NCBI GenBank assembly: GCA_010093605.1
Contig: MU004196.1
Span: 1,503,454 to 1,567,453 of the forward strand
From: Lophium mytilinum
Taxonomy: Eukaryota > Ascomycota > Dothideomycetes > Mytilinidiales > Mytilinidiaceae
Length of the DNA stretch: 64,000 nt
Direction: 5' to 3'
Shown: positions 1 through 40,407 of the stretch, one piece after another
Position numbering within the stretch: position 1 is the first letter of the stretch
How the letters are laid out: each line of letters begins with the position of its first letter
Position numbers and translations under genes: made by a program
Notes under the pieces: generated by a model
Seen by the model: only the letters and a program-made list of their open reading frames with translations
Told to the model about the DNA's origin: nothing
The model's database searches: none

Positions 1-899
1 TCCTTCTTTTTGAAGAGTTGGACACGGCAGTTCGGGCAAGTGTTGGAGGCAGCGAACCGGTGATTGAACATGACCGAAAGGCACTCCTCTCCAAAAATAT
101 GACCACAAGCATTTAATTTGACCGCGCGGTGGCCAACACCATACTGAGCATCCTGGCAGATGCTGCACTCGGGAAGATCTTTTTCGTCGGTAGGTTTGGC
201 GAGCTCATCGACATTGGTGCGAGGACCGACGAACTCGAGAGGAACATCCTCCAAAGCCCCAGTTGGCATTTCCCAGATTTCCTCCTCAGAAGGGGAGTCA
301 TCGGGCGTCGCAGCTTGAGCCGCCCGGTGGTTTCCACCGCGAAGTCGACGCCAAACATTGCTGAAGCGCCGATGTCGAGCATGCTCATTTTGGCCGCTGG
401 TGTCTTGGAGCTCGGTCTCGTCCTCGGGCTCGAGGCATTCCAGAGCGATCACGCCATTCGTACGGACGCGGACTGATTGCTCGCCAAACTCAAAGACCGT
501 AGTAGCTGGGCCCTTGGTGACCATACGCTTGTCAGTATCGTTCACGCGCTCAAGCCGAAAGTCCCGGAGGCCGGCATATGGGTTCCGACCATGGGGGAAT
601 TGGAGTCGTTCTCGAGCACGAGTCGCTGGAAGAATTGTCCGAACGTCGCGGGGGACAGTCGCTTCTCCATACCAACGCTTGACTATGGCTTCGCGGGGAA
701 ACAGAATATGGAGATCGCCATGTTGAGCCGCGTCGCCGTCGGCATGGATCACAAGATTGCCATACGTGCAAGTACCTTCCACATGGAGATTCTTCATCAC
801 TCCACCGGTAAGTGCTTCGGATGGTCGAAGGATGATGTTTGCCGCGGGGGGACGAGTGCTGTCGTCGACAACATTAAGAGTAGAAGTAGAAGCCGCCAT
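1..899 (-). CDS. RING-finger protein, C-terminus off the window (family member R1)
   Basis: An open frame runs from the ATG at 899 off the left edge (about 299 codons seen, no stop). The N-terminal ~150 residues form a beta-rich domain containing LHILFPREAIVKRW, which resembles the RING-less neighbours. An acidic linker with LEDVPLEFVGPR follows, then a RING reading CSIC...CGHIFGEEC...CPNCRVQLF. The family role would be E3 ubiquitin ligase activity. The residue three after the RING His, usually a Cys zinc ligand, is Gly here. It is tandem and co-oriented with the other family members downstream. The start is the first Met (MAAST...) in good context, gccATGG. The substrate is unknown. RING identity is secure; ligase activity is inferred. 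Confidence 0.85.
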   Translation of the reverse strand, partial: MAASTSTLNVVDDSTRPPAANIILRPSEALTGGVMKNLHVEGTCTYGNLVIHADGDAAQHGDLHILFPREAIVKRWYGEATVPRDVRTILPATRARERLQFPHGRNPYAGLRDFRLERVNDTDKRMVTKGPATTVFEFGEQSVRVRTNGVIALECLEPEDETELQDTSGQNEHARHRRFSNVWRRLRGGNHRAAQAATPDDSPSEEEIWEMPTGALEDVPLEFVGPRTNVDELAKPTDEKDLPECSICQDAQYGVGHRAVKLNACGHIFGEECLSVMFNHRFAASNTCPNCRVQLFKKK

Positions 900-1254
900 G
901 GTGGAGTCTGTATTAGATACTTGTAAGTTCTGTTGAGGGTACTGGTGTTGGTGTGATAGAAAAGGATTTGGTGGGTGTGGTGTGCTTGACTGAGGGAAGT
1001 GATAATGAGGACGGACACGAGCAGAGAGACCTGGCTTTATGCACTCCTCAGGGGGTGAAAGTGCCCCCATAAGGTGAATTGAAGCGTCACAATGTCTTTC
1101 TCGGAGCAGTAACCATGCTGAGAGCACCTGCAGTGAACGTCATGGTGCATCTTTCCGATTGTACAATGTATAGTCGGACATTTTACGGGTGGCAGGTAAG
1201 ATGAGGTAGCTTCTACACTATACGTTGTGCAGACGTGTGATTGAGACGAAGAGC

Positions 1255-1485
1255 TACAGTGACAAGCCACAAGTCTGGTCACACTGGTACGCCACTGATT
1301 GGGGTACCCCAACAAAGTTTTGAGGACTTAAAGGTGATTTTAACCTTCAAGCAGTGTGTATTAGACTGCCTCTTAAGCACTTGCCTGCTCAGCAGCCAGG
1401 CTACCCGAACAGTGGTGTTGAGTTGGCAAATTTGAGCCGAGATATAATGAGTCCATGTGCCCAGATTTGTGGCCTAGGACTGTGA
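1255..1485 (+). mobile_element. MITE family 1, copy 1 (TIR element, ~231 bp)
   Basis: The left end CAGTGACAAGCCACAAGTC and the right end, reverse-complemented CAGTCCTAGGCCACAAATC, form imperfect terminal inverted repeats of about 30 bp, next to a TA on the left. No coding capacity is seen. Internal blocks (ATTAGACTGCCTCTT, then AGTGGTGTT) recur in the copies at 6961 and 8003. A TA target site and a TACAGT-like end suggest a Tc1/mariner-type non-autonomous element. The rest of the 900-1769 gap between R1 and R2 shows nothing else. Confidence 0.75.
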
Positions 1486-1769
1486 GAACGTTGACGTGTA
1501 CGTAGCATGAAGCTTAAGGCATGTAGAACTGCATTGCGAAGACGAAATATACGGGGATAGGCCGCAAGAGAAGACAAAAGCAAAGGCAAATGGTCATAGG
1601 GAACTTGCACAAGGTACGTGAAGTGGAACGAGAAGAAGATTCAATTTAGCTAAGTCTATGCTTGCGAACTGTCCACATGAGCTTGGAGACAATTTAGAGC
1701 TCGAGATATGGGAGAAGATTGAGACGGGGAAGACCACTCGACGCATAGCGATTCTCTCTTGAGACCCCT

Positions 1770-2315
1770 CTATGGCGAGGGAGGTGAGAAGAAAGTGTTG
1801 GGCCAGTCGTGGGGGAAAGGCGGCGATGATGAGGATGCGGAAGATGGCAACACCGGCCGAGATTCGCGCTCCGCGAAAAGTTCGACGCGGCAAAATGGGC
1901 ATCGGTTCAACACTGGATCGGTGGTACTTGCCATCAGCTTCAAGCACTCATCGCCGAACACGTGCTTGCATGCCTTTAGAACCATCGGGAGATGGCCATT
2001 GCCATAGTCTTCCAGACAGATGCTGCATCTATCGAGGCCGTTGGCCACCTCTTCTGGTGAACAAGATCTGGCGAAGGTGTTGATATCGATGGGTTCATCC
2101 ACATACTCCCGCTCTACGTCTTCCAGTTCCTCGGGAACCTCATCTTCGTCATCTGTAAGGGACGGAGCGGGACCCTGCATATCAAGGGTGATCTCGCTGT
2201 GAGGGCCAAAACGATCGATGTCATCACACCTCATTTCATACTCGTCCGAGATCTCGGAATTGGGGCCTAACACGGTGACGATAGCTGAGGATCGGGGCTC
2301 AATGTTTCCTTCCAT
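1770..2315 (-). CDS. Small RING-finger protein (family member R2)
   Basis: 181 residues from the ATG at 2315. The frame is open up to an earlier ATG at 2387 (205 residues), but those extra 24 residues look like translated leader. A short N-terminus is followed by an acidic segment with EELEDVEREYVDEP, the linker shared with the other RING genes. The RING is CSICLED...CKHVFGDEC...CPFCRVELF, followed by a basic ESRPVLP motif and a Ser/Pro tail. The position expected to hold the fifth zinc ligand is Gly, as in R1 and the 29 kb relative. It lacks the long beta-rich N-terminal domain of R1. It probably works with E2 enzymes as an E3, but no substrate can be named. Confidence 0.8.
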   Translation of the reverse strand: MEGNIEPRSSAIVTVLGPNSEISDEYEMRCDDIDRFGPHSEITLDMQGPAPSLTDDEDEVPEELEDVEREYVDEPIDINTFARSCSPEEVANGLDRCSICLEDYGNGHLPMVLKACKHVFGDECLKLMASTTDPVLNRCPFCRVELFAERESRPVLPSSASSSSPPFPHDWPNTFFSPPSP

Positions 2316-2952
2316 GACTTTGTTAGTGTTAGTGAAGAAGAGAACGAGATTGAAAGACGGAAAGTAGAGAAATTTGGAGATGTTCATATGTACAAAAATA
2401 CAATGTTTGACTGTAAATTATATGTATATACATATGGTCAGATTGTAATGACTTGATATGGCATCCTTGGATTACGATAGTTGTACCATTTACATTGAAA
2501 ATTATGCCGCAAAGCTATTATATGTCTCGCCGCAAGATGTTACATCGTATGACGACATTAATTCAAAGTAACTCTGATACGCGTCGATCAGAAGACGCGG
2601 TATAGTAGAGAAAGTGAAAGATGTGCGGAGATGACAAGCTGCGATAGTGGATAATGTAGATAGCTAATTCAAAACTGAAAATCATATAGCGGTAAACGCG
2701 GATTGTTACATGTAACAGTGCATAAAAGTCACCAGAATTTCAGACTTTACAATAGAGGTTATGAGGATGTGGATGTTAAAGTGATTTATTGGAAAATATC
2801 GAAGGAAAGAAACTGGCCTATGAGCTTGGGTCAATTTAGTGAGCTCTTAGGGAAGACAATGAGAGATCTTGGACCTCAATGGATCCTGAGTGCGAAGCAA
2901 AAGCTCTAGAGCTGAAGCTTAGTTCTTACTTGGCGAGATAGGAACCATTGAC
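2316..2952. other. Intergenic, nothing recognised
   Basis: AT-rich spacer between R2 and the broken RING-less gene. A 68-codon plus frame at 2703 has no recognisable content. No repeat or RNA gene was seen. Confidence 0.5.
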
Positions 2953-3885
2953 TTAGTAGAGATCGTGAAGACACACGAGCCTATCTACAAGATGCTGCTC
3001 GTGTTCAGTCAGAACACCCTCTAGCGGCAACTCCATGAGCCGGCGCGCCTCCATTTCAAGGACTGTGAGCGCGAAGCCTGAAGCTCTTGCTGTATAATCT
3101 TCGGTCTTGGGCGCCACATCCTTGGTAGGCACGTCGTGGTCATCTCGATAGATGGGCACACCGTCGACCTCTACGTTAGGGATCGGTGTATCGCCATGTG
3201 GTGTCGGGTGGCGGTCTTCGACTTTCCGTCGAACCATGACCCGGTTCACCGACCGCTTGAAACGGCCCTATCGCACGGTACCTGTAGGACGTGGGCGTTG
3301 GACCAAAGCTGGGTTATTGGTGTTTTGGGGCTCATCGATATTCCCCGGCTGCATGGCCCCATTATCCCTTTGGAATAAGAGAGTCATGGCTCTGCGCAAA
3401 GATTCTTGCCGTTCTAGTGGTACACTCACCCTCAACGGTATGATCATCCACGGCGCGCGTAGCTTGATCGTGACGCCATCCATTTGGATCACCAAAGCTG
3501 GGGCGGCCATCGGTATCATGTACCGCCGACCTTCGGGAGATTCCTCGATACTCCAAGCGGCATTTTGGTCATCCGTGCCACTGTCGGATTCTGGATCACG
3601 AACAATAGCGTAAATATCGCTATCAATTGGCACGTTGCCCGGCATGATGCGGGCATCGGCGTCATGTGGGAAGAGGATTTCAACCTCTTTTTCGGACCAA
3701 GCTGGGCCCGCGTGTGCTCTGATGACAAGAGCTGGCCCGACAAGGCTATCTCCGGGGCGGAATTCGTACATGACGGTCTGGGCCCCGGAAGAGATGGAGA
3801 CTGTTCCAACAACGGGAATATCTCGGTCAGGAATGATGTCCTTTGGATGATACCTGAAAAGTTCCAGGAGATTCTGATAAACCAT
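2953..3885 (-). pseudogene. RING-less paralogue of the cluster, with one in-frame TAG
   Basis: One reading frame from the ATG at 3885 to the stop at 2953 would give about 309 codons, but a TAG at 3268-3270 interrupts it after ...RPTGTVR. Both halves align along their length with the intact 296-residue gene at 4652-5542: N-terminal TVSISSG/RPGDSLVGP, middle EVEILFPHDADARI and IYAIVRDPES, and C-terminal LEMEARRLMELP...EHEQHLVDRLVCLH. A CAG-to-TAG or TGG-to-TAG change would explain it. No GT-AG intron of plausible size removes the stop. It could be a pseudogene, a nonsense allele, a read-through gene or a sequencing error. No RING is present. Confidence 0.7.
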
Positions 3886-4651
3886 GAAAAAGATTTTCTT
3901 TTTTAAACAAGTCTGAATTTACCGGTTGGCATGGTTGAAGTCTCGAGGTGTGGTTTTTGGGCTTCTTCGATCTTACGGATGTGGTTGAAGTTCTGATATG
4001 TTTGTGGCGAGCTTTTTAGAGCTTGCACGAAACTTCGCGAGTGTTTGTTGGCAAAATTTGAAGGACATATACGACCCAGGAGCTGTCTAAGTGTACGAGC
4101 TTCGCAGGAAATGTGAAGTTACATCTCGAAAAGAGGCATTGTATAAGAATGTTAGAATAGTATAGATCAGGGAACCACGTGTGAGTTAATATGTGCACGT
4201 ACAATGATAAGGTAAGGTCTGAAAAGAAAATTGAGCTCCGCGTGAGTTCAGCGCAAGCCACATGGTGATATGGTTCAGAAGAAGACGCTCGATCATAGCT
4301 GTGAACGTCTGTCGAGAGGAAAGAATCGAGAATATGGTGTCACCGTCTACCTGCCACAAACGGAAAAGGGTCACCTAGCGGAGGAGAGAAAGCAGAGAAC
4401 GATACTCAACGAGATGCTGCTCAAAGAAATAGGTCAATGTGAGAGGAAATAATGAGTTGTTTGAATTATAGAGGAAGGAAGCATCAGATGTTGCAGTATA
4501 GAAGGGCATTTGAGTGCGAGAAGAATTTATTTGAGATTACTTTTGAAGAATGACAGACCTAAGAGCTAGCGTCCATCATGAGGCCTGAGAAGAACCAAAG
4601 CTGGACAGCCGAAGCTCACTTGTGGGATGATAGCGTGGTAGATTCATTCAC
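3886..4651. other. Intergenic, nothing recognised
   Basis: About 770 bp between two RING-less paralogues. Short frames at 4016-4452 on both strands show no family features or sensible composition. No repeats found. Confidence 0.5.
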
Positions 4652-5542
4652 TTAGAAGAGGCCGTGAAGATACACGAACCGATCTACGAGCCGCTGCTCA
4701 TGCTCAGCAAGGGGACCGTTGATTGGCAAACTCAACAACTGGCGCGCTTCTAGTTCAAGTTCTGACGCGCCGAATTTTGCGAGTTTTGTAGGAGTATCTT
4801 GATTTATGAGCGCCGCATCTTTGTCAGGCACTTCCCAATCATCCCAGTCAACTGGCGCGTCATGAAGCTCCACCCTGTGTATCGCTGCGATTTTAGCAGG
4901 CGAAGGAAGTGACTTCGGCATGACTTTTACGGTGGCATCCTGCATGGCGATTTTTGTCTCGCTCTGACTATCACGATGGAGTACAAAAGCCACGCCACGG
5001 AGAGAATCGGCTTCGCGCTCGATTGGAATAATTATCCTGCGAAGGAACATCATCCACGGGGCGCGGATGGTGACTGTCATGTATGGACAATCGATACGAA
5101 GGGTGGGTATTGCCATTGGTATCATATGACGACGAAACGGTGGCCTGCGTTTCGGATCGGAGACGTCTTCTACAGTCCAAGCAGTATTGGAGTCATCCAA
5201 GTACCACTTCGCGTCTGGATTCCGGATGATAGCGTAGATAGTCTCGGGCACACCTACCATAGCCGGTTCCATACGAGTTATTGCATTGCTTGGGAAGAGG
5301 ACCTTCACCTCCTTCCCAGACCATCGTGGACCATCCGGCGCTTTGATCCGGAGGCCGGGCCCAGTGAGAGTGTCGCCTGGGCGAAGCTCGTAGCTTACTG
5401 CCGGCCCTCCCGAGGAGATAGTAACTGTCGCGACGACGGAAAGCTTGTCGCTGGGGTAATATTCGGGCGATTTGAAGTTGAAGAGCGCGAGGAGACCCAT
5501 GCTAGAAGTGGCAGTAGAAATGTTGTCAGCTTGTCCGAGCAT
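4652..5542 (-). CDS. RING-less paralogue, intact (family member N2)
   Basis: 296 residues, a single exon. The N-terminal half carries the family beta-rich domain: VATVTISSGGPAVSYELRPG, KEVKVLFPSNAITRMEP and ETIYAIIRNPD. The middle has MIPMAIPTLRIDCPYMTVTI and APWMMFLRRI. The C-terminus has a predicted helical segment, LELEARQLLSLP...EHEQRLVDRFVYLHGLF. There is no RING, signal peptide or membrane helix. It is clearly homologous to 2953-3885 and 7196-7720, and more weakly to the N-terminal domain of R1. The product is probably intracellular. I recognise no named domain and assign no function. Sitting among RING genes, it could pair with or antagonise them; that is inference only. Confidence 0.75.
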   Translation of the reverse strand: MLGQADNISTATSSMGLLALFNFKSPEYYPSDKLSVVATVTISSGGPAVSYELRPGDTLTGPGLRIKAPDGPRWSGKEVKVLFPSNAITRMEPAMVGVPETIYAIIRNPDAKWYLDDSNTAWTVEDVSDPKRRPPFRRHMIPMAIPTLRIDCPYMTVTIRAPWMMFLRRIIIPIEREADSLRGVAFVLHRDSQSETKIAMQDATVKVMPKSLPSPAKIAAIHRVELHDAPVDWDDWEVPDKDAALINQDTPTKLAKFGASELELEARQLLSLPINGPLAEHEQRLVDRFVYLHGLF

Positions 5543-5970
5543 AGGCAGTATTCCAGGGGCTTTTTGGGAGGAAATTTTCCAAATTTTTCAGAGACAACAT
5601 GGGCTTAAATGTACGAATATAGCAGCAATGTTCACTCATATCGACCTAGAACAATAGCGCACTGTACCAGAGTGTTGGAATGTACATGAGGAAACAATCA
5701 TCGATTGTACGTGTGAGTACAATATTGAGATAAAGTCTGGAATGAGATGGTAGCTTCGTCCAGTTTGGCGCAGGCTGCAAAGGAAACGGCGCGACCGACT
5801 GCCAGCCACAAGCGGAGAAAGCGTTGTTAGGTTTTGGTATCAGGAAAGACGTATACTAGTACTGATGGCGAGGTCACGTTAAAGACATGAATAAAGTCGT
5901 ATGGGGAAGAATATATTGTTGTACATTGGTTGAAAAGAAGGGAAGCATGCCCAACTCACCAGCTGTGAGC
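5543..5970. other. Intergenic, nothing recognised
   Basis: About 430 bp between N2 and R3. No ORF with family features, no repeat and no RNA gene seen. Confidence 0.5.
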
Positions 5971-6582
5971 CTAGGGCGCGAGAATTGGCCGCTTTTTCCT
6001 TTTCCGAAATAGGACCACGCGACAATTTGGGCACGTGTTGATGCAGGTGTTTGGCCCGTTGGCCATCCCATCCAGGCAAGTTCGGCAGAAGACATGTCCG
6101 CAAGCCTTTAAAACCACGTGTGAATGGTCATTGGCGGGATCATGGTTCTCCAGGCACAGCGTGCACATCTCGGGGAGATTCTCACCGGGGGAGAACTCAT
6201 CGGCAATATCGTCGATTACGATACGAGGACCGATGAACTCAAACTGGACGTCTTCGTAGAGGGGCTCGAACTCGTCCTCGTCCCCCTCTTCATCCGAAGA
6301 CCCGACCAAAAATTCAGAAGGACGCCGTGAACCATAATCCAAGGGAAGGCTCGATAAGTCCCCTTCCACGTCATCGTAGAAATCCCATTCCGAAGACTGG
6401 TTGAACACCTGCCTCTGTTGAGATGGGACCGGCGTCAACGGTCGCCACGTGCTGGGTCTCCGGCGGTGATCGTGATCTCTCGCCAGCCGACGGTGCTCCA
6501 CAGTTGTTGTTGTTATGTACTGGGTGGATGTATCCTCCGAGTCATATTCCTCTTCGTCAGAATAACGGAAAGGAGGTGCCAT
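5971..6582 (-). CDS. RING-finger protein (family member R3)
   Basis: 203 residues from the ATG at 6582 (MAPPFRYSDEEEYDSED). The frame is open further upstream to 6807, but that part is Cys-rich and leader-like. An acidic, Arg-rich disordered N-terminus leads to the family linker YEDVQFEFIGPRIVIDD. A complete C3HC4 RING follows: CTLC...CGHVFCRTC...CPNCRVVLF, then RKRKKRPILAP at the end. It is the only one of the four RING genes here that keeps Cys at the fifth ligand position. Likely an E3 ubiquitin ligase, probably cytosolic or nuclear given the basic tail. It follows N2 in the same orientation. Confidence 0.82.
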   Translation of the reverse strand: MAPPFRYSDEEEYDSEDTSTQYITTTTVEHRRLARDHDHRRRPSTWRPLTPVPSQQRQVFNQSSEWDFYDDVEGDLSSLPLDYGSRRPSEFLVGSSDEEGDEDEFEPLYEDVQFEFIGPRIVIDDIADEFSPGENLPEMCTLCLENHDPANDHSHVVLKACGHVFCRTCLDGMANGPNTCINTCPNCRVVLFRKRKKRPILAP

Positions 6583-6960
6583 TCTAGAAATGAAAGCTTT
6601 TTTGGAAGCGTTCGAGAGGCGTTTTGTTTTGTGATGTTGTGTAAGCGGATTCCTTGCTGGGAACTGTGTTGAGAGATGAAGCCAGCAACATTGCTTATAT
6701 ACAAAATTATTGTAAAGATATACAAGCAACGTTGAACATTGCAACAATGAAGGCTGCGAGAGAGCTGTGCATACACAGTGTCGGTATCGTGGAACTGCAT
6801 TGTACATGTCGATGCAGACGCCGATTCGATGGCGATATGGGCCATCTTTCGAGAAGCCTGTGAGGTCTCAACGAGCGGATCATTTTCTCGTGGTAGAGTC
6901 GAAAACCAGGCGTTCTCGGTCTTCCGGACTCCCTCACTTCCTTGATGGCGCACGTCATGC

Positions 6961-7194
6961 TACAGTGATAGGCCGTAAGTCTAAGCACACTGGTTCGCCA
7001 CTGCTAGGGGCACCTCCCAACGGTTTGAGAAGATTTATAGGCAATTACCAGTCTTAAGCCGTGCAGATTAGACTGCCTCTTGACTAGTTAGCTGCTTAGC
7101 GGCTAGACTTACTCCCTACAATGGTGTCAAGTAAGCAACATTGAAGCCAAGCGGTGACAAAAACGTGGGCCCAGACTTATGGCGTAGTACTTAC
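6961..7194 (+). mobile_element. MITE family 1, copy 2 (~234 bp)
   Basis: The left end CAGTGATAGGCCGTAAGTC pairs with the reverse complement of the right end, AGTACTACGCCATAAGTCTG. The internal blocks match copy 1 (CACACTGGTTCGCCACTG, GCAGATTAGACTGCCTCTTG). Its right end lies 2 bp from the stop codon of the truncated RING-less gene at 7196. The remainder of the 6583-7195 spacer shows nothing. Confidence 0.75.
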
Positions 7195-7195
7195 C

Positions 7196-7720
7196 TTACG
7201 TGGTAGCGTTTTCTTTAATCTTGCTCTGACCCGTCTTCTCCGGTTTCGGAAAAATCGTCCACCTTCTCAAGCAAACCTCCCCTTCCGCTTCAATCTCAAC
7301 CATGACATTGTTCCATTCAATCAGCACCGACGGAAAGTCTCTCGAGAATATGCGGTACTGTCGCTTTGGCAGCGCTTGCAATACACACTCCGGGCTCTGG
7401 TCCATCTCGCCCCTAGCTTTCGACATAGCTATGCGATGACTCGTGCCCTCATCATGCATGACCGACACAACATCCTCGGATAATTCGATATCCGAAGGTT
7501 CTATGTAAACAGTTGCATCGCGCGGAAAATCGACGTCGATAGAAGGATCAGTAGGCAGCTGGAGGCGCGGGCACTGGAAGAGGAATGCGTCGTGGGGACC
7601 CCAGAAGTGGATGCGACCGGGGTACATCTCAAAGCGCTCTGTTGGACCGCCGGATAAGATACTTACGGTCGCTACGCTGGCAGGTCGAGGTTGTAGCTCC
7701 GGACGTTGATGGCTAGGCAT
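7196..7720 (-). CDS. RING-less paralogue, C-terminally short, ending at a MITE (family member N3)
   Basis: 174 residues from the ATG at 7720. SVATVSILSGGPTERFEMYP and IDVDFPRDATVYIEP match the N-terminal domain of N2 (VATVTISSGG..., KVLFPSNAITRMEP). FPSVLIEWNNVMVEIEAEGE matches N2's central segment. Alignment stops about 110 residues before N2's end, so the helical C-terminus is missing. The stop codon lies directly against the MITE at 6961-7194, so the insertion probably removed the original 3' end. A GTAAGG just before the stop could be a donor into a MITE-containing intron, but I found no matching downstream exon. Function unknown; it may be a decaying gene. Confidence 0.6.
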   Translation of the reverse strand: MPSHQRPELQPRPASVATVSILSGGPTERFEMYPGRIHFWGPHDAFLFQCPRLQLPTDPSIDVDFPRDATVYIEPSDIELSEDVVSVMHDEGTSHRIAMSKARGEMDQSPECVLQALPKRQYRIFSRDFPSVLIEWNNVMVEIEAEGEVCLRRWTIFPKPEKTGQSKIKENATT

Positions 7721-29043: not shown

Positions 29044-30117
29044 TCATTGCGGCCAACACGACCTATTCCCGGTATCCCACTCCCCGGGGTTAATATCGGA
29101 GCTTAATTCAGGCACATCATCCTGAGCATGCTCCTCATCCTGAGCATTCTCCTCAAACTGGGAATTATCGATGATTGGTCTCCTTTGACGAGGAGCGAAA
29201 ACACGCACACGGCAGTTCGGACCTATAATATGTTAGCATACAATACAGACAACCCTCACAAAACGGGGGAAAGGGGCCATAATAGACATTAACTTACAAA
29301 TAAAGAGCGGGGCCGTCGGGTGATTGAGCAAGCCATGCAAACAATCTCTCCCGAAGACATGCCCACATGTATTCAGACGCACCGGAATGTGGTTAGCATT
29401 ATACTCATCTTCCTGGCAAATCGTGCAGTTTTCCATATCACCTTCACCTTCGGGTACTCGAGTCGCAACATCGTCAACGTCGATCTCATCACCAACAAAC
29501 TCGAATCCAACATCCTCTAGCTCTCCAAACCGGCCCCGCAGTACTGATGAGGTCAAGGAGTCGTTCGCACTCCCCGGGGGAGGGGCGCCGTCAGTGTCGC
29601 TGTCAGTATCGTCGTCTCTCAGAGGGAGAGTAACCACCTGCACGCCCTCCACAAGCGCAATCGCAAAGTCGCTCTTCAGCATATACAACGCCGTAATCAC
29701 GCCGTCGTCTCCGGGCCTTCTCACGAGCTCCCGGGCCACCTGGATAGGCGCGTTCGGGTCTGCGTCCAGCTCATTCGTGCGGGGATTGATGCCGGGGATG
29801 TACTCCTCGTTGGTCCCCCGGATCCAATAGTCGCCTAGCTGTAGCATAGTGGGGCTTGGTGGGCAGATGTCGGCGCGGAACTCGTCCTCTTCCCAGATCT
29901 TCATTCGCACGTTGAGCTCGGAAAAAGTGACTACGAGTGCGCTCCTCCCGTTGATATCTGCGGTGGCTATCCTGAACATCTCGTGGTGGGGCCGCCCGGG
30001 CATTCTGAAAACCCAGTTATCGCCAATATAGACGTTGCTAGTATCTAAGCGGCCATTTGGGTCTCGCACGTAGACAACACCGAGCGGCTGTTGGCCGGCG
30101 CCTCGTGCATCTGCCAT
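29044..30117 (-). CDS. RING-finger protein, dispersed relative of the 0-7 kb cluster (R4)
   Basis: Two exons, 30117-29298 and 29222-29044, around a 75 bp GTAAGT...TAG intron; 332 residues. Splicing joins TAPLFI to CPNCRVRVF and so completes the RING: CTICQED...CGHVFGRDC...CPNCR. The unspliced frame lacks the last Cys pair. The ~230-residue N-terminal part is rich in beta-type segments. The linker GELEDVGFEFVGDEIDVDDV is the same as in R1-R3, and RQRRPIID follows the RING. The fifth ligand position is Gly. The C-terminal tail is acidic with an AQDEEHAQDD duplication. Probably an E3 ligase; substrate unknown. Confidence 0.85.
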
Positions 30118-30434: not shown

Positions 30435-30591
30435 CCAAACCTATATCAACTGTGCTGAGCAGGAAACTAGTCAAGAGGCAATCTAATCTGCACTACTTGA
30501 AGTTTGACATCGCCCTTGAGTATTCGAAACCCTGTGGGGTACCCCAAGCAGTGGCGTACCAGTGTGCCCAGACCTGTGGCCTGTCACTGTA
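30435..30591 (-). mobile_element. MITE family 1, copy 5 (truncated)
   Basis: Read on the minus strand it starts TA then CAGTGACAGGCCACAGGTC. CACTGCTTGGGGTACCCCAC, GCAGATTAGATTGCCTCTTG and CTAGTTTCCTGCTCAGCA follow, after which the match ends. The other terminal repeat is not found. It lies in the 30118-30719 spacer; nothing else is seen there. Confidence 0.65.
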
Positions 30592-34529: not shown

Positions 34530-35906
34530 TTACTCAAAGATCGTAAAGCTCTTGTATTGAGCGTGCTCACCTTTCGTGACCCAATCAAATTCGAAGGGCG
34601 CAAAGTCGTGGTGAACTTTCACTTGTTTCGCTGCAGCCTTCAAGACGTGCTCCGGGATCGTTGTCCCCTGTATTGAGCGTCCTGCATTGCGTCCCTCACG
34701 AGGGCTGATGATCCACAGTATTTCCAAATCAAGAACCTTGCCCAACTGGGTAAGCAATTCTGGCCACGTACCCTTTGCGAGAGTGACATAGGCCAATCCT
34801 AGCTTTCGGATACCACGAAGACCGTTTTCCTGTTCCGTAAAGATACGGAGGATGTCTTCGACCCGCGTGTACAGGCCCAGGTCAAACGTCAAGCGTAGAT
34901 CCCGGGGCTTGGGTAACGGAACGGTACCTAAAGCCGGGCCCTGGTGCCAGAGCGGATTGAAGAATTCCTTGTCATCGATATATCGGTGCTCTGGAACATA
35001 GTCGGCGTAAAGTGAGAGGTCCAGAGTCTGCAAATTGGGACACGAGCTGAGCAGATCTTGCACTACGATGCCGCCTTCCGCGAGCTGCTTGATGTTGCAA
35101 CTGAGATTCTTCAAGTCCTTGAAGACTAATTCGCGGTACGCAGGGTCAATTGATAGAAGATTTCTGGCGCTGATGGAGTGCCAATATGCTTCGTTCCCCG
35201 CAAATGGTGTTGCGAAAGTCTCCAACTTCAAGCCCGATGTGCTCAAGGCTGCGAATAGCTCCTTCAAATCGGGGGCGAATGAATCTCTGCTGTACAGATC
35301 GTCGTCTACACGCTCCCAAGACTGGATTTTCTTCTTCTTACCGATGCCCCAGTCAGTCACGTCAGACCATACGGTGCGTTCGGTCCATTGGCCAAAGTGT
35401 CGGTCTAGGGGGACGGGGTAATACCGAATATGACGGAGGCGAGGGAAGCGAGCTAGCAGGCCAGTGAGCTGCTTCAAGTACTTGCCTGACTCTCGGAATT
35501 GAGACTGTTCTCGGCCTCGCCTTAGGGCATCTTCCCATACCAGTCTCTGAGACTGGACGTAGAAACGGCTTTTGTGGATCACTGCTCCGGTCGTAAATCG
35601 CACTCCGCAAAACGAAAGCGTTTCAATTTCTGTGGCAAATTTGCTCTCTGCGATTGCTTGTAACGACCCCATGCTCTCTGGAGTGCTGTAGAATAGGGTT
35701 TCTTCAAGGACCTTTACGAACGCCTTCTCTAGCGCTGGCATACCTGGATAGTCAACCTGAGCCCTGCGAATCTCCTTCTTCGATATCTCGGAAAGGAGAG
35801 CTAGACGTTCATGGGGGCTTTTGGTGGGGGTTGCCCATTGTTCGACCTTTTGCTGGACAGCTTCAGGCAACAGTCCTGACATTTCAGCAGCATCGCTATA
35901 TGCCAT
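34530..35906 (-). CDS. LRR-like protein, paralogue 1
   Basis: 458 residues, single exon. The N-terminal helical part has ERLALLSEISKKEIRRAQVD and FVKVLEETLFYSTPES. Leucine-patterned strands follow: IETLSFCGVRF, LRHIRYYPV, LKNLSCNIKQL, LQTLDLSLYADY, PRDLRLTFDLG, IRKLGLAYVTL and LEILWIISPREG. They resemble irregular leucine-rich repeats of fungal F-box proteins, but no F-box is visible at the N-terminus. The conserved end YKSFTIFE is shared with the gene at 38848-40407, to which it aligns over most of its length. There is no signal peptide. Function unknown; a binding platform is a guess from fold type. Confidence 0.75.
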   Translation of the reverse strand: MAYSDAAEMSGLLPEAVQQKVEQWATPTKSPHERLALLSEISKKEIRRAQVDYPGMPALEKAFVKVLEETLFYSTPESMGSLQAIAESKFATEIETLSFCGVRFTTGAVIHKSRFYVQSQRLVWEDALRRGREQSQFRESGKYLKQLTGLLARFPRLRHIRYYPVPLDRHFGQWTERTVWSDVTDWGIGKKKKIQSWERVDDDLYSRDSFAPDLKELFAALSTSGLKLETFATPFAGNEAYWHSISARNLLSIDPAYRELVFKDLKNLSCNIKQLAEGGIVVQDLLSSCPNLQTLDLSLYADYVPEHRYIDDKEFFNPLWHQGPALGTVPLPKPRDLRLTFDLGLYTRVEDILRIFTEQENGLRGIRKLGLAYVTLAKGTWPELLTQLGKVLDLEILWIISPREGRNAGRSIQGTTIPEHVLKAAAKQVKVHHDFAPFEFDWVTKGEHAQYKSFTIFE

Positions 35907-36250: not shown

Positions 36251-37530
36251 TTAGGATAAGAGAGCGTCATCCCATACTTGCCGACAGCTAATATTAAGCC
36301 TCTTGCTCCGCATATAGCCCTTCCACCGCTGATACTCCTTTGGGGTCTCACCGCCCTCTTTGACCGGCCACGCATGCAAGCTTTCAGGACAAGTTCCCGC
36401 CATAACCTTCGGCATCGCGTGCCATGCCCACCGCGTTGGTCCGTCCATCTGGACTACATCCCCGCTTCGCACGCGTATCACGACCATAGGCTGTTCCGAG
36501 GCGTCCGATTCGGTTCGTTTCGAAGGACTGTACTGCGGAGGTACTTTAGCTCCGGCGCCAGTGCTACACTCTTCTTGAGTTGGATCCTCTTTCGCAATAA
36601 TGAATAGTCCATCGCAGCCAAGCGTGAAGCTGGCTAGTCCTCTTGGACTCTCCTCGGAGACGTCGCGATGGACCGGCATGTAGTCTTTCGGACTGTAGAG
36701 TAGTACAACTCCTGATTCGGGCTTGAACGAGGCCTTGAAAAGAGTCGTGACGAGTTCGGCGATGTCGGCCGGGAAAGGAGTCGGGGAAGCAGGTGGGTAA
36801 GATCGCGTGCTCCAGTTGTATTGCGAACCGAGAGTCAGCCAGCGAAGCTTCTTCTGTAAGAATTGTGCTGTATTGAGTGTCTTGTGAGATGAGAGAGGAT
36901 TGATGGGAACGAAAGCTGGATGTTTCTTATTCTGCGGGTAGGTGAAGAAAGATGGCGAACATGTCGCGTCCACCGACTGCGGAGGATGCGGGATTGAATA
37001 GTCTTGACTAAGGTTATTTGTATGCAGTGGATTGGATAGCTCGCGGTGTAGGAGATGGTCAAGCATGAGCCATTGGCTTTCGGGAGGGAGAAGAGATGGG
37101 AACAAGCGGAGGCCTGGAGGTGTTAGATCGCGTGAGAAATCGTGCTTTGCGTATCTGATAATCACCTGGAAATTCCTTATGCTCATAGACGGTACACGCT
37201 GGAGGAAGAACTTCTGCTTCGACAATGTCCCCGTTGGAAATTTTGCCGTGATTCTTGAAGGCTTTTTCGGCGGAGGCAATTAATTCGGATGGAATGGTGT
37301 AAACGTGGATGAGTTGCGTTTTCTGATCTTCGGTCAACCCGCGGTTGAAGTCAATTATGTCAAGGTCTCCATCGACTGCCGCATCGTCAATCTTCTGGTA
37401 CTTCCTATACATATTACATATTGGTTGCGGCGGCATGGCATGCGTATCATTGCCATTGATTCTCTACCAAGCCTTGTCAGGGAAGCGTAGAATACGTAGG
37501 GTATAGGCTTACGGCGTTTCCACTATCCAT
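36251..37530 (-). CDS. AlkB-like 2-oxoglutarate/Fe(II) dioxygenase (ALKBH1 type)
   Basis: Three exons, 37530-37513, 37463-37166 and 37113-36251, give 392 residues; the 18 bp first exon encodes MDSGNA. The N-terminal YRKYQKIDDA...IIDF segment is typical of fungal ALKBH1-like proteins. The iron ligands are His254-x-Asp256 (PVHRD) and His337 (AWHAMP). The 2-oxoglutarate signature is Arg377-x-Asn379 and Arg383 (RLNISCR). The family oxidatively demethylates bases in tRNA or DNA. A hydrophilic insert lies between the HxD and the distal His. The gene is bracketed by inverted repeats, and the two LRR-like paralogues lie outside it. Confidence 0.88.
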
Positions 37531-38847: not shown

Positions 38848-40407
38848 ATGAATCTATACTTGGCGGAAGCATGGCCCAATAAAGTTTGGAGGAGGGACAA
38901 GAAAGAGAAGTCCTCACAGGAAGCGACTCCAGCCGCTCCTTTGCGTCCTCATGACCTTAGCATAGCGGCAAGATCCAATGACGACCTGGTTGACCTGGCC
39001 GCGGCTTTGCGGAAGGAAAGCCAGAAAGATCCCCACCATGAGCAACCACGAGAGACAATGCAGGCAAACATCGAGAAGTGGACTATACCAGAAGCAAATA
39101 TCCACGAACGCCTCCTACTCTTGTCCGAAGCTTCGAAACAAGCAATCTGCAAGGCACGCGCCAACTATAAGGGTATGGGCGACATTCTCAACGAGCCCTT
39201 CATCAAGGTCTTGGAGCAGAAACTCTTCTACACGACCCCGTACAGCTTGGACATCTTGCGACAGATTTCAGAGAGCATATTTGCTGGCAGGATCACGACG
39301 CTATCTTTCTGTGGCCTTCAGTTCGCTACTGACGCCAAAACGCCAAGTCATTGGTACAATGGACTATTCACTAAGGAGGATAAACAGGATCTAAAGAAGA
39401 AAGACTGGAAGGAATGTAGACTCCGGGGCCAGGAGCAGGCCAAGCTCCAAAATACCGTTCAATATGTCGAGGACCTTCGCACAGTATTAGCCAAGTTCAC
39501 GAATCTCAAGCACATCCGATACTTTCCCACCTCACCGGATCGTGTAGGAGGCGGTTGGGTGAATATGCGAGTTCTCAACATTGACAAGTACTGGATTGGG
39601 TCAAGCATTGGGGAGACGAGCCGCGTTATGTGGGTGCGAGACGACAACTACCTCTACAGCACTCGAAATGGTGATCTGAAGGACCTCTTCGCTGCTCTCC
39701 ACGGGGCCGGTACCAAGCTGGAATCCTTTACAACCCCTTCTTTCGGAAACCAGGCAGGTTGGGAGACGATTGGCGAGGGCCGTCTCGAAGTGGTTGATCT
39801 GAAGCATTTCGCTATAGTTTTCCAAGATTTGAAAGAGCTGCGCTTAAATCTGAGAAGCTCGGACTGCCTCAATAGGGGCCATGATATGAGGAAGATCCTC
39901 CGCGAATGCCCCAGATTGGAGATACTCGAGCTTTCTTTCTTTGCGGACGACGACTCCGAAGACCCCGAGATCTTTAGGCCGCTCAATGTGGGTGGCGTAG
40001 GTCTAGGCGCAGTGCCACTGCCCCATCTCCAAGAGCTCCGACTAGCCTTCGATGCCGGCATACGCACCGCAAAAGAAAACATCCTGGAGTTACTCAAGAG
40101 CCCCGGAGCTGGGCTGAGAAGTGTTCGCAAGCTAGGTTTAGCTTACATCACTCTCGATGGGGACGATTGGGACGAGTTGCTGCTCGAACTCTCTACTCTC
40201 TTGAAGCTAGAGGATTTGTGGTTGATCAGTCCTCGGAAAGGGTGGTGCCCAAAATCCTCTGAGGCAATGAAGTTTTCGAACGAGTTCCTTGGAGGAGTCG
40301 CGCGGAAAGTTCAGATCCATCACGATGAGCAGCCTTTCGTTGCTAAGAAGGATTGGGTTAAACAAAATCAGCGTGTCCATTACAAAAGCTTTGCAATCTT
40401 CGACTAG
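38848..40407 (+). CDS. LRR-like protein, paralogue 2
   Basis: 519 residues, single exon. It aligns with the 458-residue protein at 34530-35906: ERLLLLSEASKQAICKARAN, FIKVLEQKLFYTTP, ITTLSFCGLQF, LKHIRYFPT, LKELRLNLRSS, LEILELSFFADD, LQELRLAFDAG, VRKLGLAYITLD, LEDLWLISPRKG and the end YKSFAIFD. The first ~75 residues are extra, charged and probably disordered; a later start at 39058 would match the paralogue better. No F-box, signal peptide or membrane helix. The two paralogues are in opposite orientation, so one arose by inverted duplication. Function unknown. Confidence 0.75.
   Translation: MNLYLAEAWPNKVWRRDKKEKSSQEATPAAPLRPHDLSIAARSNDDLVDLAAALRKESQKDPHHEQPRETMQANIEKWTIPEANIHERLLLLSEASKQAICKARANYKGMGDILNEPFIKVLEQKLFYTTPYSLDILRQISESIFAGRITTLSFCGLQFATDAKTPSHWYNGLFTKEDKQDLKKKDWKECRLRGQEQAKLQNTVQYVEDLRTVLAKFTNLKHIRYFPTSPDRVGGGWVNMRVLNIDKYWIGSSIGETSRVMWVRDDNYLYSTRNGDLKDLFAALHGAGTKLESFTTPSFGNQAGWETIGEGRLEVVDLKHFAIVFQDLKELRLNLRSSDCLNRGHDMRKILRECPRLEILELSFFADDDSEDPEIFRPLNVGGVGLGAVPLPHLQELRLAFDAGIRTAKENILELLKSPGAGLRSVRKLGLAYITLDGDDWDELLLELSTLLKLEDLWLISPRKGWCPKSSEAMKFSNEFLGGVARKVQIHHDEQPFVAKKDWVKQNQRVHYKSFAIFD

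Follow-up and report, generated by a model that had tools for sequence, protein, structure and literature searches.

A tandem array of RING and RING-less genes in Lophium mytilinum, with a candidate relocated zinc ligand in its RING domains

The locus and its genes

The stretch of DNA considered here, termed the window, comprises 64,000 nucleotides of the ascomycete Lophium mytilinum (contig MU004196.1, here C16, positions 1503454-1567453) in a genome of 43.18 Mb on 24 contigs; C16 ends 46 kb past the window. It contains four genes for RING proteins (R1 to R4) and three RING-less genes (N2 to N4), which lie on the minus strand in the order R1, R2, N2, N3, R3, N4 and, about 21 kb on, R4. The genes, order and common orientation reported in a first-pass annotation of this DNA are thus all present. 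Three of the four RINGs have glycine where the fifth zinc ligand is expected (Gly5) and a histidine at the start of strand beta-1. Across the genome these two features go together, and the histidine may be a relocated zinc ligand. The array runs past the window edge, where two further RING genes (RA and RB) and one RING-less gene lie upstream. The features are as follows, in window positions unless a contig is given.

Window edge (1) to 899, minus strand: R1, an N-terminal domain (N-domain), linker and RING; its C-terminus is off the window, the last coding base 19 bases beyond
405-899, minus strand: N-terminal domain of R1, a probable distant relative of N2 to N4 (N2/N3/N4 profile and shuffles)
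195-254, minus strand: R1 linker, LEDVPLEFVG...VDELAK (motif scan)
27-167, minus strand: R1 RING, in which zinc ligand 5 is Gly (codon 90-92) and His257 stands at the beta-1 start (codon 129-131)
1770-2315, minus strand: R2, a putative truncated N-domain stub, linker, RING and RP tail
2064-2126, minus strand: R2 linker, LEDVEREYVD... (motif scan)
1890-2027, minus strand: R2 RING, with Gly at ligand 5 and His at the beta-1 start
2953-3885, minus strand: N2, a RING-less gene with an in-frame TAG at 3268-3270
4652-5542, minus strand: N3, a RING-less gene of 296 aa, with an N-domain and a C-terminal tail in common with N2, the tail predicted to be helical
5971-6582, minus strand: R3, an N-terminus without a detectable N-domain, linker, RING and RP tail
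6199-6258, minus strand: R3 linker, YEDVQFEFIG...IDDIAD (motif scan)
6022-6165, minus strand: R3 RING, with Cys at ligand 5 as well as the beta-1 His
7196-7720, minus strand: N4, a RING-less N-domain gene of 174 aa, without a C-terminal tail of the N2/N3 type
29044-30117, minus strand: R4, an N-terminus of unknown kind, linker, RING and RP tail
29461-29520, minus strand: R4 linker, LEDVGFEFVG...VDDVAT (motif scan)
29212-29427, minus strand: R4 RING including an intron, with Gly at ligand 5 and His at the beta-1 start
C16:1501285-1502130: RA, a RING gene upstream of the window
C16:1500136-1500915: RB, a RING gene upstream of the window
C16:1498739-1499485: a RING-less gene upstream of the window

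Two of the gene models include predicted introns. A 75-nt intron at 29223-29297 lies inside the RING of R4 and interrupts the codon for zinc ligand 7. In N2, the in-frame TAG would be lost by splicing of a 111-nt intron (3171-3281) in which a CTAAC branch site is present, which is why N2 was not taken for a pseudogene. Short introns such as these, together with the repeat-induced point mutation described below, would be in keeping with a filamentous ascomycete. The N-terminus of R3, judged by eye, is acidic and of low complexity.

RING domains and ubiquitin-conjugating enzyme contacts

The Pfam family zf-RING_2 (cut-off 27.3 bits) scores 34.1 in R1 and 36.8 in R2. The whole-protein scores of R3 (26.4) and R4 (26.7, exon 1 only) fall just under the cut-off, and in the genome scan all four RING places exceed it. 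At the position that contacts the ubiquitin-conjugating enzyme (E2), the residue before ligand 2, R1, R2 and R4 have Ile and R3 has Leu, and the linchpin Arg after ligand 8 is found in R1 to R3 and in the second exon of R4. The tandem paralog cluster is thus very probably ubiquitin-linked, as the first-pass annotation had proposed. These features extend to the Gly5 RINGs genome-wide: the linchpin Arg is found in 35 of 39 readable rows, and in 40 of 42 rows ligand 2 is preceded by Ile, Leu or Val.

A profile search of the PDB with the RING gave 62 matches, led by RNF4 and TRIM32. In an AlphaFold2 model of R1, the blocks covering the RING have a predicted local distance difference test (pLDDT) of 69-85, and the top Foldseek fold matches are the RINGs of RNF13 and EL5 (probability 0.97-0.98, E 0.07-0.08). 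Judged by the canonical pattern of eight zinc ligands, in which ligand 5 is Cys or His, R3 (Cys) conforms and R1, R2 and R4 (Gly) do not.

The pre-RING linker and the basic tail

The motif EDVxxE[FY][VI], which the first-pass annotation had noted before the four RINGs, holds up well. A scan of 1,997 stop-to-stop open reading frames (216,814 residues) with the strict form EDV..E[FY][VI] gave four matches, one in each of R1 to R4 and all before RINGs, where shuffling (20 rounds) predicts 0.05. The distance from linker to RING is 20-24 residues. An Arg-rich RP(I/V) motif said to follow the RING is present as SRPV in R2, KRPI in R3 and, after the predicted intron, RRPI in R4; R1, whose end (...FKKKERQAVRG-stop) lies outside the window, has a basic C-terminus but no RP.

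The linker is not peculiar to the cluster. A looser form of it adds one gene on contig C2 and one on C18, in each case 26-36 residues before a RING, and a second RING gene on C2 has the related stretch ENVGPDPEV. The N-termini of the C2 and C18 genes appear to be helical and unrelated, and their basic tails (REHRPKP, RKHRPVP and RERRLKP) are of the same kind as those of the cluster. A genome search that took one C2 gene as query aligned its C2 neighbour in the set and the C18 gene over linker, RING and tail (query residues 4-120 and 2-109 of 143), so that the three parts seem to travel together as one cassette; R1 to R4 aligned over the RING and its edges only. The annotation had also held that general occurrence of the linker in unrelated fungal RING proteins would refute its reading, and the C2 and C18 genes go part of the way towards this, within one genome.

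The N-domain and the RING-less genes

N2 and N3 are 43% identical (BLAST 6e-50 in a ten-sequence set), N2 and N4 are 25% identical (1e-9), and N3 and N4 are also clear relatives; by these alignments the three are true paralogs. Whole-genome searches with N3 and with N4 (E<=0.1) found matches only to each other and to N2, and the same search with the N-terminal domain of R1 alone found nothing but R1 itself. A profile built from N2, N3 and N4 nevertheless ranked R1 first among 1,994 non-training open reading frames (E=0.059), and none of 3,000 shuffles of R1 scored as high. By the shuffles, the likeness of R1 to the three RING-less genes that the first-pass annotation saw is weak but beyond chance.

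With the same profile, the number of shuffles per 3,000 that scored as high was 7 for the upstream RING-less gene, 12 for R2, 66 for RA, 513 for a RING gene on contig C4, 707 for R4, 1,238 for R3 and all for RB. When R1 was added to the profile, the counts per 2,000 were 0 for R2, 3 for the upstream RING-less gene, 10 for the C4 gene, 13 for RA, 218 for RB, 423 for R3 and all for R4. A profile of R1 alone singled out N3 (0 of 2,000), the C4 gene (1) and N4 (10) and gave no support for the R2 stub or the upstream RING-less gene, and a profile of RA and RB gave 18 of 2,000 for the C4 gene and likewise for R4, without singling out N3 or N4. These results are read as a real but much diverged N-domain, complete in R1, reduced in R2 to a stub of approximately the first 50 residues and undetectable in R3 and R4. 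The upstream RING-less gene and RA, at 7 and 66 of 3,000, are only suggestive as carriers of the domain, and the likeness of the C4 gene, at 10 of 2,000 with R1 in the profile, is likewise suggestive. The idea that every RING gene of the cluster has an N-domain was not borne out with the N2/N3/N4 profile for R3, R4 or RB. The C4 gene itself (C4:2347304-2347486) has an N-terminus that is weakly R1-like in both directions, the reverse comparison giving 25 of 2,000 shuffles.

The fold of the N-domain was sought without a match. N2 to N4 have no Pfam match above the cut-off, a PDB profile search with N3, N2, N4 and R1 returned one chain (E=0.36), and comparison of the N3 and R1 models with the PDB found nothing at E<=0.001; although a PH-like fold, among others, came under consideration, no named fold is proposed. 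The model of N3, computed from four window sequences, has a mean pLDDT of 50.5 and is beta-rich with helices towards the C-terminus. The N-domain blocks of the R1 model have pLDDT 25-41, and the mean for all of R1 is 45.4.

In place of linker and RING, N2 and N3 have a C-terminal tail in which they are 44% identical over 85 residues (E=1e-13) and which is helical in the low-confidence N3 model. Over 273 aligned codons the pair has 0.53 nonsynonymous (dN) and 1.66 synonymous (dS) substitutions per site, dS being near saturation, and by this measure is under purifying selection. The earlier description of the module as fast-evolving accordingly holds for divergence only.

One alternative account of N2 to N4, which the first-pass annotation raised beside a role as partners, is that they act as dominant negatives, binding the same targets as the RING proteins or dimerising with them through the N-domain and so blocking ubiquitination. 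The N-domain that N2 to N4 share with R1, and in part with R2, counts for such a role, as does the purifying selection on N2 and N3. However, R1 resembles N2 to N4 only remotely (E=0.059), R3 and R4 have no detectable N-domain, and N2 and N3 have a conserved tail of their own, which suggests more than truncation. A dominant-negative role is judged rather unlikely.

Coupling between ligand 5 and the start of strand beta-1

The position between ligands 4 and 6 (H4-x2-[5]-x2-C6) is Gly in R1, R2, R4, RA and RB. Of the zf-RING_2 places in the genome, 79 of 107 were read and 75 aligned; left out of the 75-row table are the short fragments at C15:92122 (Gly5 with His) and at C19:440983, 443193 and 444796 (His5). 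Among the aligned RINGs, 42 have Gly as ligand 5, 20 have His, 12 have Cys and one has Asp, the Asp row being kept out of the two-group counts.

The beta-1 start column, which lies three residues ahead of a conserved Val-type position in the strand, differs sharply between the two groups. In the 42 Gly5 rows it holds His 29 times, Asp six times, Glu four times and another residue or a gap three times, whereas in the 32 rows with Cys or His at ligand 5 it holds His once, Asp or Glu four times, and 27 times a gap or another residue, such as Arg, Lys or Pro. Histidine here is thus tied to Gly5 (29/42 versus 1/32, Fisher p=2.0e-9), as is any of His, Asp and Glu (39/42 versus 5/32, p=5.0e-12). The result holds against Cys5 rows alone (1/12, p=2e-4) and against His5 rows alone (0/20, p=6e-8), and it does not depend on the column: His occurs within the eight-residue stretch 6-13 residues before ligand 3 in 35 of 42 Gly5 rows and 4 of 32 others (p=7.8e-10). 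A first, motif-based count, from which 8 of the 79 rows were dropped, gave 34/41 versus 3/30. Among all column-residue features present in at least four rows, the next best reaches p=1.7e-3, and this speaks against relatedness alone as the source of the coupling. Furthermore, the state flips within tandem clusters as the coupling predicts: three genes of the C17 array are His/Gly and one is Arg/Cys, and of the pair on C7 one is His/Gly and the other Arg/Cys.

In the R1 model, the strand limits (259-262 and 268-270) would place His257 roughly opposite Cys273, which is ligand 6. We infer that the beta-1 histidine is a relocated zinc ligand that replaces ligand 5.

The Gly5 RINGs might instead be degenerating pseudo-RINGs without zinc site 1, the beta-1 His being a relic of one ancestor. 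Such RINGs have a counterpart in the SP-RINGs, which lack site-1 ligands and still keep the fold (PMC13061254), and both the frequency of Gly (42 of 75) and a RING tree compatible with few origins of the Gly5/His state fit this explanation. Yet SP-RINGs typically lose ligands 2, 5 and 6 (PMC13061254), whereas all 42 Gly5 rows retain site-1 ligands 1, 2 and 6. The coupling stands far above any other feature (p=1.7e-3 at best), and the Gly5 RINGs keep their E2-contact and linchpin residues, all of which makes degeneration improbable.

Genomic setting

The zf-RING_2 search of the genome (E<=0.001) found at least 107 places. Adjacent RING pairs within 10 kb number 29, against 2.6 expected under random placement, although genes are not in fact randomly placed. 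Among the 104 RING places on contigs of known length, 37 are no more than 150 kb away from contig ends, a zone that makes up 14.5% of the sequence; these ends are possibly not telomeres. The cluster is evidently part of a genome-wide RING expansion. Further tandem RING arrays, with other flanking domains, lie at C19:438200-445900, at C17:46100-54800 and, twice, at 40-50 kb on C5, and by eye some of their genes have membrane-like hydrophobic stretches.

That the array is a mere by-product of gene turnover near chromosome ends, in which paralogs drift and RING-less ones decay, would suit the position of the RING places (37/104 versus 14.5%), the in-frame TAG in N2 and the strongly mutated far half of the window, but it is improbable given the plausible 111-nt intron with branch site that removes the TAG, the N2-N3 dN/dS well below 1 with open frames kept, and a RING cluster that has no signature of repeat-induced point mutation (RIP; TpA/ApT 0.66).

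That far half, window 42000-64000, is AT-rich (GC content 0.26-0.35 in 2-kb bins) and strongly RIP-mutated (TpA/ApT 1.8, (CpA+TpG)/(ApC+GpT) 0.09-0.26). A diverged, dispersed repeat of about 230 bp occurs at window 1253-1481, 6959-7191 and 30453-30591; it is commoner over the final 190 kb of C16, and the two RING genes on C2 have a copy between them. As an agent of duplication this intergenic repeat (229 bp) was not built upon, since copies are scattered across the genome (40 scored of 232 candidates). Between R4 and the AT-rich half, the neighbouring open reading frames at 34530-35906 (minus strand) and 38848-40407 (plus strand) appear by eye to be diverged paralogs. A third, at 36251-37279 (minus strand), has by eye the look of an AlkB-type oxygenase.

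Relation to known RING families

R1 to R4 resemble the RING-HC and RING-H2 E3 ubiquitin ligases of the zf-RING_2 kind (RNF4, TRIM32, EL5 and RNF13) in the E2-contact residue and the linchpin Arg, and R1, R2 and R4 keep seven of their eight zinc ligands. Ligand 5 is Cys in the five PDB alignments viewed (four RNF4 chains and one TRIM32, out of the 62 matches), unlike the Gly with beta-1 His of R1, R2 and R4. In the plant type RING-G, Gly stands at metal ligand position 5, as it does in R1, R2 and R4. RING-G is the nearest label; here, however, Gly5 is the commonest state (42/75) and is tied to an upstream His. RING-G is among the plant types that vary at metal ligand positions and is represented by 7 of 1,272 wheat RINGs and one in Arabidopsis, and the passages on it in that survey mention no such His coupling (PMC8169666).

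Six ligand patterns are given in a compendium of human RINGs: C3HC4, C3H2C3, C3HC2D, C4HC3, C4C4 and C2H2C4 (PMC13061254). The arrangement proposed for R1, R2 and R4 matches none of these six. Within the C2H2C4 group, MDM2 offers a precedent for the replacement of a standard ligand by a histidine, as its His452 stands in for Cys C3 (PMC7010608). The MDM2 swap is at ligand 3, which in R1 to R4 is Cys, whereas here it would be at ligand 5, with the His 13 positions upstream in R1 and across the hairpin; by the cross-brace order (PMC7614390), ligand 3 would be part of site 2, and site 1 would include ligand 5.

The nearest case of a family motif before the RING is the CTL family, which with ATL and BTL forms a group of RING-H2 ligases defined by conserved motifs just before the RING (GLD, YEELL) (PMC5764321). 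R1 to R4 differ from these in the motif itself, EDVxxE[FY][VI], and in having a RING and not a RING-H2; the CTL combination of YEELL with His at ligand 5 does not occur in them, ligand 5 being Gly or Cys.

A codon-restricted search of viral and prokaryote contigs for the Gly5 signature gave 39 matches, none of them a RING by pattern. Among the papers that searches of an open-access library listed, none was recognised as a description of the ligand arrangement or of the cluster, which does not prove absence from print.

Interpretation

The interpretation favoured here, with a probability of roughly 0.6, is that R1 to R4 are cassette-built RING E3s, with a relocated-His zinc site in R1, R2 and R4, in one tandem array within the large RING expansion of this fungus. 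They would be small single-subunit RING E3 ubiquitin ligases in which a reusable cassette (the EDVxxE..V linker, the RING and a short basic tail) is fused to variable N-termini, and these N-termini, the N-domain among them, would choose the target. In R1, R2 and R4, Gly5 would leave zinc site 1 one ligand short, and the His at the beta-1 start, across the hairpin from ligand 6, would supply it; in other members Asp or Glu may fill this role. The E2 would be engaged in the usual way, through the Ile or Leu before ligand 2 and the Arg after ligand 8. In N2 and N3 the N-domain appears to be kept under purifying selection with a conserved tail replacing linker and RING, and N4 would be an N-domain alone. 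The most probable role of these RING-less proteins is that of adaptors or competitors, which would bind either targets of the same kind or the RING proteins themselves.

Several observations weigh against this interpretation. The RING tree, built on 51 columns, is poorly resolved and has one independent pair on starred branches, so that phylogenetic independence of the Gly5/His coupling stays unsupported. R3 has His and Cys5 together and so breaks the either/or rule, in the RING at C2:2777135, Cys5 is accompanied by a His that is off by one residue, and three Gly5 rows have none of His, Asp and Glu in the exact beta-1 column. The seven Gly5 rows without a His in the eight-residue stretch all carry Asp or Glu there, as do 22 of the 28 His-less Cys/His5 rows; the case for Asp and Glu as substitute ligands therefore rests on one aligned column. 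The ligand counts cover 79 of the 107 RING places and one genome, that is, one sample. The RNF13 and EL5 matches of the R1 model are not significant by E-value (E=0.07), and the N2/N3/N4 profile finds no N-domain in R3 or R4.

A wider proposal, which we hold more tentatively and at somewhat less than even odds, is that a large RING repertoire is built on an undescribed zinc order, C-C-H-C-H-(G)-C-C-C, with the fifth ligand at the beta-1 His in most members. The ligand would flip between its two places among close paralogs, with R3, which has both, as an evolutionary bridge, the cassette would be shuffled onto new N-termini, and the RING-less paralogs would be kept as regulators.

The putative relocated ligand is more unusual than the cluster itself. 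In the cluster, RING and RING-less paralogs with a common domain form a compact system. If the beta-1 His is a zinc ligand, the standard rules for an intact RING, which require eight fixed ligands, would mistake many of this fungus's ligases for defective ones. There would then also be another natural instance, besides that of MDM2, in which a histidine elsewhere takes over from a RING ligand, and the presence of paralogs in both states in one genome would make the path of the swap testable.

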